From an uncultured Clostridia bacterium (GTDB lineage: Bacteria; Bacillota; Peptococcia; Peptococcales; Peptococcaceae), in contig CALXUG010000004.1 in NCBI GenBank assembly GCA_944391625.1, forward strand, positions 1 to 64,000: a stretch of 64,000 bases of DNA. Reading direction: 5' to 3'. Positions 47,820 to 57,497 of this stretch are shown here, piece by piece (within the stretch, counting starts at the first letter, position 1; each line of letters starts with the position of its first letter). Under the pieces are notes generated by a model that was not told the origin of the DNA, searched no databases, and saw only the letters and a list, made by a program, of their open reading frames with translations. The position numbers and the translations under genes are program-made.

Positions 47820-48060
47820 GGAATTTTGGCAAAGGATAGGTCAGCCTTATGTGCGCAAAGCAGGGAGATGTTTTGTTGCCGTTGTCGAGATTGAAACGGA
47901 CAGATGCGCAGTCTGTCTAGCTGAACTGGACGCAGTCCAAAGTGAAGCAGACCGACAAGCAGATGTCTGTTGAACGAGGGCAGGCAACAAACATTCTCCC
48001 AATAATGCAGTATCGTAAACAAAATTGTTTCACGTGAAACACCGTTATTGACCAAATGAA
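47820..48060 (-). repeat. parS-containing repeat (family P), copy 1
   Basis: Inverted copy of 57121-57372 at roughly 85-90% by eye, running from the parS site to GGAATTTTGGC. It contains TGGACGCAGTCCA, the same hairpin core as family A. The open frame here (VSRET... / MFHVKQ...) is a translation of repeat DNA, not a gene. Confidence 0.85.
48026..48041. promoter_or_regulatory. parS site (ParB/Spo0J binding), site 1
   Basis: TGTTTCACGTGAAACA, a perfect 16-bp palindrome identical to the widely conserved bacterial parS consensus. Confidence 0.93.
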
Positions 48061-48091
48061 TCGCAAAGGGTAAGAATTTATCCATGGTAGG

Positions 48092-48177
48092 AGGGCAGGC
48101 AACAAACAGTCTCCCGATAATGTAGCATCGCAAATAAAATTGTTTCACGTGAAACATCGTTATTAACCAAATGAAAT
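48092..48177 (-). repeat. parS-containing repeat (family P), short copy 2
   Basis: Matches the parS-proximal ~85 bp of copy 1 (GAGGGCAGGCAACAAAC to ACCAAATGAA), in tandem with it. Confidence 0.85.
48141..48156. promoter_or_regulatory. parS site, site 2
   Basis: TGTTTCACGTGAAACA, perfect; 115 bp from site 1. Confidence 0.93.
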
Positions 48178-48211
48178 GGCAAACAGCAGGAGTTAAATAA
48201 TATATAATGTA

Positions 48212-48392
48212 TCGGACAATATCTGTTGCAGTGTCCACACGCTGCTCTGGACAGCAGCTGCACGTATTTTTGTCGCTTTGGACTGCGTCCAGCTTCATAA
48301 AATACGTTTGCTACAGTTCATCCAGAGGTGGACTTTCTGCAAAGATATTGCCCTCTTAGCGATTTTGGCGAAATGTTTTGATGGATGGGGTG
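48212..48392 (+). repeat. Dispersed hairpin repeat (family A), copy
   Basis: Starts TCGGACAATATCTGTTGCAG; same variant as 47499. The 5-prime end is truncated relative to the full copies. Together with that copy it brackets the two parS sites. Confidence 0.85.
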
Positions 48393-48542
48393 CAGGGTAG
48401 CAATTAAAAAACTTTTTGGAACAGGTGGGGATAACAGTTGCTTTTTGCAGGGTATTCTTGTAAAATGTATTTGATATAGACCTATGCAAATGTATGGGCG
48501 GATGTCCTATCTAATCTGCCTGTTTCTTGAACAAAAAGGGGG

Positions 48543-48571
48543 TTGACATGCTTGAAACTCCGCAATACACT
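48543..48571 (+). promoter_or_regulatory. Candidate promoter before the SLH protein gene
   Basis: TTGACA-17 bp-TACACT; predicted transcription starts inside the ACAG repeat. Confidence 0.6.
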
Positions 48572-48572
48572 T

Positions 48573-48604
48573 ACAGACAGACAGACAGACAGACAGACAG
48601 ACAG
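48573..48604 (+). repeat. (ACAG)8 tetranucleotide microsatellite
   Basis: Eight perfect ACAG units directly after the -10. The last units form a hairpin with CTGTCT just downstream. Confidence 0.97.
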
Positions 48605-48620
48605 CATAAGTCTGTCTTTT
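48592..48620 (+). terminator. Hairpin with T tract at the repeat
   Basis: AGACAG pairs with CTGTCT (loop CATAAGT), followed by TTTTTTT. The 5-prime arm is supplied by the microsatellite. Confidence 0.65.
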
Positions 48621-48750
48621 TTTGCTGTGCAAATAAGGCTGAAACGCTCTATCCGAAGGGCGCGTTCTGCCTGTGGGTTTTCCACGGACGGGATGCGTCC
48701 TTTTTGTGTCTATCTGTAAAAAATAAATATATGAAAGGAAATCAGAACAG

Positions 48751-55130: not shown

Positions 55131-55175
55131 TTGTATGTTCCTTTTCTCTGTGTAGTTTTTTAGTGCAAGCAATGC

Positions 55176-56177
55176 TTATTTCAGCAACTGTTTGCCAAAA
55201 GCGCAGTAGCTGTCTTCCTGCATAATGTCGCCGTCGTGATAATATGCAGAACGGGCGCGGCAGCCGCCGCAGATACCTTTATAGCCGCATTTTCCGCAGG
55301 CGCCTTTGTAGTCCTGGGTGCGCAGCTGCTGGAATAACGGGCTGTTGTTCCAGATTTGGTCAAATGGAGTATCGTGTACATCGCCGGCTTCTTCCACCAT
55401 GTAAGCGCAAGGGCGTACTTTACCGATGGGGCTGATAATGCAATAGGTAAGACCAGCCAGACAGCCGCGGGTAAAGCGAGGATCCAAATCAACGCCAAGC
55501 TGTTTGGCAACACGGGTAAATTGCGGTGCGCAGGTTGGTTTGATTGGGATAGATACCTGTTTCTGTTTTTCCATAATGGTGCGCAGCAGGTTTTCGTATT
55601 CCATCACTTCTACGGCAGTGTCTTCAATATAAACGCCGCGGCCTACCGGAATCAGGAAGAAGATATATTCTGCCATTGCGCCCATTTCTACCGCAAAGTC
55701 GATGATGTCGCAGATTTCATGCTTGTTCCAATCCATGATGGTGGTGTGAATCTGGAATGGCAGACCTGCTTCACGACAGTTTTTCATACCCTGAATGGTA
55801 CTGGCGTAAGCGTTGGCATCACCGCGGAATTTGTTGTGTTTTTCTTCGTCCAGGCTGTCCAGGCTGATGCCCATAGCAGCAGCGCCGCTGTCTTTTAATT
55901 TGCGGGCTACTTCTTTGGTGATAAGGGTGCCGTTGGTGCCGAACACCGGACGCAGACCTTTGGATGCTGCATAAGCCACCAGTTCATAAATGTCGGGGCG
56001 CATGAGCGGTTCACCGCCGCTGAAAATCATAATTTTAAAGCCGGCGCGGGCAATCTCGTCAATCAGTTTTTTGCCTTCTGCGGTGGTCAGCTCGGCATCT
56101 TTTTGGTTGCCGGCGTCCTGATAGCAGTGGCTGCATTTTAAGTTACATTGGTTTGTGGTCATCCATGATACAATCAT
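55176..56177 (-). CDS. Radical SAM/SPASM protein, NirJ/AhbD-like
   Basis: 333 residues. The cluster motif CNLKCSHC (C11, C15, C18) starts almost at the N terminus, followed by MIFSGGEPLMRPDIYELV and LDSLDEEKHNKFRG. The C-terminal SPASM-like cysteines include CGKCGYKGICGGCRA. The compact layout resembles the heme-pathway enzymes NirJ, AhbC and AhbD and also peptide-modifying enzymes. No precursor peptide is visible next to it. It sits 2 bp after the MerR gene and before a FecBCD-type importer. Confidence 0.85.
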   Translation of the reverse strand: MIVSWMTTNQCNLKCSHCYQDAGNQKDAELTTAEGKKLIDEIARAGFKIMIFSGGEPLMRPDIYELVAYAASKGLRPVFGTNGTLITKEVARKLKDSGAAAMGISLDSLDEEKHNKFRGDANAYASTIQGMKNCREAGLPFQIHTTIMDWNKHEICDIIDFAVEMGAMAEYIFFLIPVGRGVYIEDTAVEVMEYENLLRTIMEKQKQVSIPIKPTCAPQFTRVAKQLGVDLDPRFTRGCLAGLTYCIISPIGKVRPCAYMVEEAGDVHDTPFDQIWNNSPLFQQLRTQDYKGACGKCGYKGICGGCRARSAYYHDGDIMQEDSYCAFGKQLLK

Positions 56178-56179
56178 TG

Positions 56180-56977
56180 TTATTCTCCTTGTGTCTTTTG
56201 ATAATTTTTTACAACGTTCTGCAGAAATTCGTTGACTTCAAATCGGAGTTCATGAAAAGAGTCATAAACACTGCTTTTTTCTGCAGAATCAAAAATGACA
56301 AAATCGTGATGGTTGGTTTTGCGGGAAACGGCGCCAACCTCTTTTTCCATAGCCAGATAGCGTTGGGCAATTTCCTGGCTTTTGGCACTGTTCAGCGGTT
56401 CATTCTGCTGTAACAGGCGGATGGCATCGGCAATCAGTTTGTGCCATTGGGCCACTGTTTTCTGCTTTTGCTCGTGGCTTTCCATCAGTTCCTGCTGCTC
56501 TGTTTCGTTTTCCCGATAGGCGTTTTCTTCAAAGGAGCAATTCAGTTTCCAGATATATTTTCCTTCGTCCTGAAAACGCTCGATGACATGGGCATAATGC
56601 TGCCAGTTGACGGCCTGGTCGGATTTTACCGTTTCGCTGAGATTTTTTAATGTGGCGAACCGTTTCATCAATGCAGAAACTTCCTTTTCTACATCGTTGA
56701 TTTTTTTGTCCAGCAAAAGTTTAACTTCTTCAGTGGCGTCAAATCCGTTCAGACTTTGACGGATTTCGGTCAGCGACAATCCCATAAACTTGAAGCAGAG
56801 TATTTTATACAGTTTATCCTGATCTTTTTTTGTATAGAGCCGCTGATTACGGCTTCCTTTGGCGGAAGGCTTCAGCAGGTTTTCCTGGTCGTAATATTGG
56901 ATGGTGCGCACAGTAACGCCGACTCGTTCAGCCAGTTCACCCACTGTCATGTATTCTTCTTCTGTATGCTCCGGCAT
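56180..56977 (-). CDS. MerR-family transcriptional regulator
   Basis: 265 residues. N-terminal MerR HTH (YMTVGELAERVGVTVRTIQYYDQENLLKPSAKGSRNQRLYTKKDQDKLYKI), then a coiled-coil and a ~150-residue C-terminal helical region with no cysteine pattern for metal binding. ATG 56977 follows GAGAGGGGGC. First gene of the operon, behind a promoter with a 19-bp spacer, so it probably activates its own operon in response to an unknown ligand. Confidence 0.9.
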   Translation of the reverse strand: MPEHTEEEYMTVGELAERVGVTVRTIQYYDQENLLKPSAKGSRNQRLYTKKDQDKLYKILCFKFMGLSLTEIRQSLNGFDATEEVKLLLDKKINDVEKEVSALMKRFATLKNLSETVKSDQAVNWQHYAHVIERFQDEGKYIWKLNCSFEENAYRENETEQQELMESHEQKQKTVAQWHKLIADAIRLLQQNEPLNSAKSQEIAQRYLAMEKEVGAVSRKTNHHDFVIFDSAEKSSVYDSFHELRFEVNEFLQNVVKNYQKTQGE

Positions 56978-57012
56978 GTAAAAGCCCCCTCTCATCATAC
57001 ATACCGTTAAGT

Positions 57013-57043
57013 ATTATAGAGGATAACGCAACGTCATTGTCAA
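57013..57043 (-). promoter_or_regulatory. MerR-type promoter with 19-bp spacer
   Basis: On the minus strand TTGACA, 19-bp spacer, TATAAT. The spacer holds a short dyad TGACG-TTG-CGTTA. Over-long spacers are the hallmark of MerR-activated promoters. Confidence 0.88.
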
Positions 57044-57120
57044 CTGAAAAAGTAAAGAATCAGATGTTTTTATGGGCGGGCAGCTTTTTTGAACGTATAA
57101 CTGTTTTGCATATAAGTTTA

Positions 57121-57372
57121 GTTAATTAAGAGTGTTTCACGTGAAACAATTTTGTTTGCGATACTGCATTGTCGGGAGACTGTTTGTTGCCTGCCCTCGT
57201 TCACCGGACATCTGCTTGTCGGTCTGCTTCACTTTGGACTGCGTCCAGCTCAGCCAGACAGACTGCGCAGCTATCCGTTTCAATCTCGACAACGGCAACA
57301 AAACATCTCCCTGGGTTGCGTGTATGAGGCTGGCCTATCCTTTGCCAAAATTCCGACTTAGAGCGAACAATC
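57121..57372 (+). repeat. parS-containing repeat (family P), copy 3
   Basis: Inverted relative to 47820-48060. It contains TGGACTGCGTCCA near 57236 and runs to CCAAAATTCC. With that copy it forms a ~235-bp inverted repeat around 9 kb. Region 57373-57615 holds a decayed fourth end and no gene. Confidence 0.85.
57133..57148. promoter_or_regulatory. parS site, site 3
   Basis: TGTTTCACGTGAAACA, perfect. Confidence 0.93.
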
Positions 57373-57481
57373 TTGCCGTATGTCTAAGCTGAGGTGGATG
57401 AAATCCAAACCGAAGCAGACATACAAAAGATTGTCCGAAATACGGAGGGATAGGCAAAGATAGGACAAGCCGACCATGCAA

Positions 57482-57497
57482 TCTTTCATACGAAACA
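57482..57497. promoter_or_regulatory. Degenerate parS-like site
   Basis: TCTTTCATACGAAACA, four mismatches to parS. It is followed by ATTAACCAAATGA as next to sites 1 and 2, so it appears to be a decayed family P end. Confidence 0.6.

Follow-up and report, generated by a model that had tools for sequence, protein, structure and literature searches.

Perfect parS sites on a dispersed MITE-like hairpin repeat in an uncultured Peptococcaceae genome

From parS, where it is loaded, ParB spreads as a CTP clamp; it also loads SMC. The usual position of parS is near oriC and parAB, which ParB binding does not strictly need. Its supposed confinement to the origin region is explained by the harm that distant sites do, as they disturb segregation and cause SMC loops to collide. 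In the Spo0J/ParB system of B. subtilis, the chromosomal parS is the same 16-bp palindrome as the one analysed here, the cognate ParB carries R173/G201 and the array surrounds parAB near dnaA. Eight parS are spread over ~0.75 Mb in B. subtilis, where distant parS cause SMC collisions or disturb folding (PMC8357415), and Caulobacter tolerates a second parS cluster only within ~500 kb (PMC5815017). Described genomes contain 1 to ~20-23 parS, near the origin (PMC7333895), whereas the genome studied here holds 69 throughout.

Other known systems resemble our locus in part. B. subtilis has ~70 palindromic NBS round its chromosome (PMC4331003), comparable to the dispersed parS in our genome; however, our sites have the parS sequence, the resident Noc has NBS-type residues and perfect NBS are absent. 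Bacterial MITEs share with our repeat the short, non-coding form, the terminal inverted repeats and the many dispersed copies, but the ends of our repeat are parS-like and no clear target-site duplication was seen. REP/BIME elements likewise join intergenic hairpin modules in mosaics, although the hairpins here are much longer and the genome lacks a Y1 transposase (PF01797). A literature search, which reached few subscription papers, found no report of parS on dispersed repeats.

parS sites and carrier repeats in the window

The window comprises the initial 64 kb of contig C4, from the 2.97 Mb genome of an uncultured gut bacterium (G000; 74 contigs, 96% complete, 0.72% contamination). As the first-pass annotation had noted, it contains three perfect copies of the Bacillus-type parS palindrome TGTTTCACGTGAAACA (48026-48041, 48141-48156 and 57133-57148), which match the chromosomal 16-bp parS TGTTNCACGTGAAACA exactly. 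Beyond these three, the 64-kb window holds no parS match at up to three mismatches. The shuffled window is expected to yield 0.33 such matches, and none of 100 shuffles reached three.

That each site terminates a dispersed repeat had likewise been proposed, and our repeat comparison agrees: 47809-48056 and 57118-57365 match each other at 89% in inverted orientation (248 nt), and 47957-48060 and 48072-48175 at 84% in direct orientation. BLAST, folding and an alignment of 39 copies defined the first carrier (47809-48041, plus strand) as a long imperfect hairpin with the stem base GGGAGATGTTTTGTTGCC / GGCAACAAACATTCTCCC, parS at its end and a fold z of -4.15 against shuffles. Module search and the same alignment revealed a conserved outer module, CCGTTATTGACCAAAT (consensus TAGTTATTAACCAAAT; 48042-48057, plus strand), that adjoins parS. 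The second perfect parS belongs to a partial copy of the element end (48072-48172, plus strand; 91% over 48091-48175), which comprises the right arm, parS and a AACCAAAT module. The third forms the right end of a near-complete composite element of ~380 bp on the minus strand (57117-57498; fold z -5.45 against shuffles), composed of a left terminus, two hairpins, parS and, outside parS, the AACCAAAT-type module CTCTTAATTAACTAAA (57117-57132, minus strand). Its left terminus TTGTTTCGTATGAAAGAT (57481-57498, minus strand; consensus TTGTTTCGTGTGAAAGAT) recurs at many other copies, and outside it lies ATTTGGTTAATCACA, the inverted counterpart of the AACCAAAT module (57499-57513, minus strand). A degenerate relative of parS had been reported at 57482. 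The sequence is indeed there, with a core at four mismatches from parS, but it proved to be this left terminus, that is, the other end of the element at 57117-57498.

Further repeats and structured sequences were observed in the window. Beside the element lies a 182-bp dispersed hairpin repeat with TTGGACTGCGTCCAGCTC-type hairpin modules (47564-47745, with a 94% copy at 48211-48392, both plus strand), which has TGGACTGCGTCCAGCTC-type modules in common with the parS carrier but no parS. Upstream of an SLH-domain protein gene, a GACA tetranucleotide run followed by TCTGTCTTTTTTT (48574-48625) forms a terminator-like hairpin from a microsatellite. Two direct repeat pairs (94-97%; 40185-40256/43115-43186 and 41867-41991/43913-44037) lie next to an Rfam group II intron domain match (43038-43114), which suggests two partly duplicated group II intron remnants. 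An Rfam match to the Streptococcus sRNA SpF66 at 36932-37134 (42.9 bits, just over the cut-off of 42) is probably a shared structured RNA or due to chance.

Genome-wide spread of parS and its carrier

We then followed the check that the first-pass annotation had named, a genome-wide search for the 16-mer and its flanking repeat. It returned 69 perfect parS in 2.97 Mb, where ~0.001 are expected by chance and a reversed-pattern control gave 0 copies, and it confirmed that parS and carrier are dispersed together. With one or two mismatches allowed, only 7 more places were found (76 in all). Outside the origin array, most parS terminate a composite non-coding hairpin element; the contigs with these copies make up ~70% of the genome, and carrier-borne parS are present on more than 30 contigs. 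Some 56 perfect parS lie beyond the array; on the 21 largest contigs, the parS counts are compatible with a uniform distribution (chi2 12.4, 20 df). Both number and spread are contrary to the rule that parS are few and near the origin. The sites avoid long reading frames, with 4/51, 2/28, 1/29 and 0/14 inside ORFs of at least 200 aa versus a background of 36-63%.

The genes parA and parB reside on contig C27, surrounded by 11 perfect parS within 7.8 kb (C27:26241-34026). These parS are embedded in extended palindromes, e.g. TTTCCAA-parS-TTGGAAA. In the sister genome G005, one contig carries parB, noc and dnaA together with a dense parS array. The C27 region is an ordinary centromere region, and the window lies outside it as far as the assembly shows. 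Nearness to oriC/parAB is evident only for the 11 C27 sites; those of the window, on C4, and most others are on contigs without parAB. The nearness of the window sites to oriC, which the annotation had inferred, is thus not upheld. Since the carrier copies are scattered without origin bias, the very outcome it had named as speaking against the inference, this part is refuted, while the parS identity of the sites is not.

BLAST with a 252-bp query from the window returned at least 56 genomic matches. Of 65 sites inspected, 48 had the module TAGTTATTAACCAAAT, exact or in a closely similar form, after parS, and the 30-mer of module plus parS (up to three mismatches) occurred in 42 copies, 40 of them with a perfect parS. 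The long imperfect hairpin occupies the other side of parS; upstream of it come another hairpin, which exists in several alternative versions, and the left terminus. Complete copies measure 471-550 bp, have inverted TTTCCATTGTTTCGTGTGAAA-like ends and contain one parS each. Terminal inverted repeats, a length below ~600 bp and the lack of a gene are all characteristic of MITEs, and many copies are truncated or mosaic. Searching the AT-rich flanks for a target-site duplication gave one candidate only (C3:49877-50356, ATAAA). The carrier can best be regarded as a mosaic, non-coding repeat of composite, MITE-like structure with parS-like ends. A RAYT/Y1 transposase was considered as its mobiliser and rejected, as PF01797 had no match in the genome while the controls were detected.

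The exact sequence TTGGTTAATN5-parS was absent from 84,980 species genomes, a set that may lack the window's own genome; the end module therefore looks species-restricted. Since many carriers are just 6-20% diverged from the query, their spread may be recent. At C27:30592-30908, a carrier is situated between two perfect parS with origin-type outer flanks, several other sites adjoin native sequence on one side and the repeat on the other, and native origin parS bear the same TTTCCA extension. This arrangement fits a carrier that inserted at, or recombined into, a native parS and was then dispersed with parS attached.

Conservation of dispersed parS in the genus

Eight genomes of the genus (Peptococcaceae, relatives of UBA7185) contain 3-69 perfect parS, the seven besides G000 having 17, 10, 33, 8, 30, 11 and 3. 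In 52 other relatives we found 0-3, and every genome outside the genus in a 398-genome phylum sample had at most 7. The parS excess is genus-wide and was seen in most of the eight members. In sister species, dispersed parS lie in plain intergenic DNA without the carrier. A search for the carrier there yielded only weak hits (71-76%) to its middle hairpin, plus short ones that consist of parS itself. Of five origin-distal loci checked in the sister genome G001, three correspond to an orthologous parS-bearing locus in G005 (p ~5e-7); at these three, the 16-mer is unchanged and the coding flanks align, but most of the intergenic flanking DNA does not. For G005 sites, a parS close to the orthologous G000 gene was seen in only three cases (p ~0.003), and the surroundings there hold repeat modules. 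The dispersed loci of a further member, G003, had no orthologous parS in G005 or G001, which indicates high site turnover between more distant species. Two dispersed parS of G005 (L202 and L210; C9:18807 and C31:109560) have in common a different flanking repeat, TTCTGAAAA..ATGTATGGTAGTGTAGGA, which suggests other parS carriers in other species.

Is parS also kept within the carriers of G000? The right end held a perfect parS in 30 of 35 carriers, versus 8 of 37 in which the left end matched its own consensus exactly (same carrier set, p = 3e-8). Dropping loci that were picked through parS gave 24/29 on the right versus 7/33 on the left (p = 2e-6). Among 39 aligned copies, the 16-mer of the hairpin base was exact in 36 and that of parS in 30. 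Such equal conservation of the hairpin base means that the element itself accounts for some of the constraint, and conservation inside the element could partly serve its mobility. Taken together, right-end retention in carriers, carrier-free dispersed parS, orthologous sites and the avoidance of reading frames speak in favour of purifying selection on the dispersed parS of the genus and of a subsequent amplification by the repeat in this species. The order of these steps, genus-wide selection first and repeat amplification later, is what we infer from the comparison.

Candidate readers and alternative explanations

ParB proteins of the genus genomes have GKSR and G-H motifs with R173 and G201 (Caulobacter numbering), the parS-type specificity residues of ParB (Jalal et al. 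2020, PMC7383237). Their closest counterparts in named records, at 77-81% identity, come from Peptococcaceae metagenome bins (ruminant guts and other sources), including UBA7185. A third ParB-domain protein (512 aa; L060 787-2325, contig C7 of G000) has a long N-terminal extension and by appearance is of the plasmid or conjugative-element type.

We consider it reasonably probable, judging from sequence, that the three window sites are real parS-type loading sites for ParB, as predicted from the residues of their partner, in a genus that disperses perfect parS as well as clustering them at the origin, and that MITE-like copying brought their number to 69. In the species studied here, parS would be the right-hand end of a MITE-like hairpin element with an imperfect parS-like left end, and copying of the element would have multiplied it. 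ParB would bind the dispersed sites, each of which would seed a short zone of ParB-CTP clamps and perhaps load SMC. Selection would keep the 16-mer intact, and the sites may help to organise the chromosome or to time division far outside the origin region. Both ParB binding and function at these sites are predictions. Counting against this explanation, scattered strong parS would be expected to be costly.

The alternative that fares best, though we regard it as clearly less probable, is that the palindrome is kept as a MITE-like terminal repeat for movement of the element. Its match to parS would then stem from capture of, or insertion at, a native parS, and ParB binding would be mostly incidental or tolerated. 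The inverted outer ends of complete copies with their single parS, the parS-like left end, the carrier between two perfect parS on C27, the sites with one native flank and the TTTCCA extension shared with native origin parS are all in line with such an origin, as is a second repeat with the unrelated interior hairpin GTTAGCCG..CGGCTAAC, whose ends are common to the parS carrier. However, dispersed parS of sister species are footprinted without any carrier, and within the same elements a perfect parS at the right end is much commoner than an exact consensus match at the left end.

Rather improbable, in our estimate, is that dispersed parS took over the job of Noc sites in division timing or nucleoid tethering, with either ParB or a less specific Noc as their reader. 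Their distribution and number do resemble the NBS of B. subtilis, in that the sites are dispersed; NBS are typically also missing around the terminus. In addition, the genome encodes a true Noc (TIGR04285, 328 bits; cut-off 315), and the perfect NBS 14-mer (core ATTTCCCGGGAAAT) occurs 0 times in G000 and 0-2 times across the genus, with 6 places in G000 at up to one mismatch. But this Noc keeps Q173, K179 and R201, residues of the NBS type that predict binding to NBS and not to parS, and NBS may simply be degenerate in the genus. The window sites have the parS sequence, not ATTTCCCGGGAAAT. Noc was therefore rejected as the reader of dispersed parS and kept as a rival only. Three NBS-like sequences with one mismatch lie within 250 bp on another contig (G000:C42:1912-2162) and another near parA (C27:27215); together with similar pairs in G005, G001 and G004, they are possibly real Noc sites of the genus.

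We think it very unlikely that the 16-mer is an operator, or an RNA or DNA structural element, of another protein that merely resembles parS: the sites are intergenic and often just downstream of terminator-like hairpins, but they are identical to parS, form an array around parAB and coincide with no Rfam family. An assembly or binning artefact can practically be dismissed, since 65 of the 69 sites were read in distinct contexts without conflicts among overlapping loci, contamination is 0.72% and most of the eight genus members show the excess, even though the named relatives are metagenome-assembled and repeats are prone to misassembly.

The sites are parS by sequence and by predicted partner; what is new is their genomic distribution and mode of dispersal. 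More speculatively, and with far less confidence than in the explanation we prefer, the genus might have rewired its centromere code, with parS turned into a genome-wide, selectively kept, Noc-like landmark while Noc sites are few, and in one species a mobile parS-ended hairpin might distribute loading sites for ParB and SMC. With its dozens of perfect parS across the genome, some of them footprinted, the genus would be a natural test of the rule that confines parS to the origin. The parS-ended repeat would show that mobile DNA can redistribute centromere-like sites, and it raises the question of how ParA, SMC and Noc cope.
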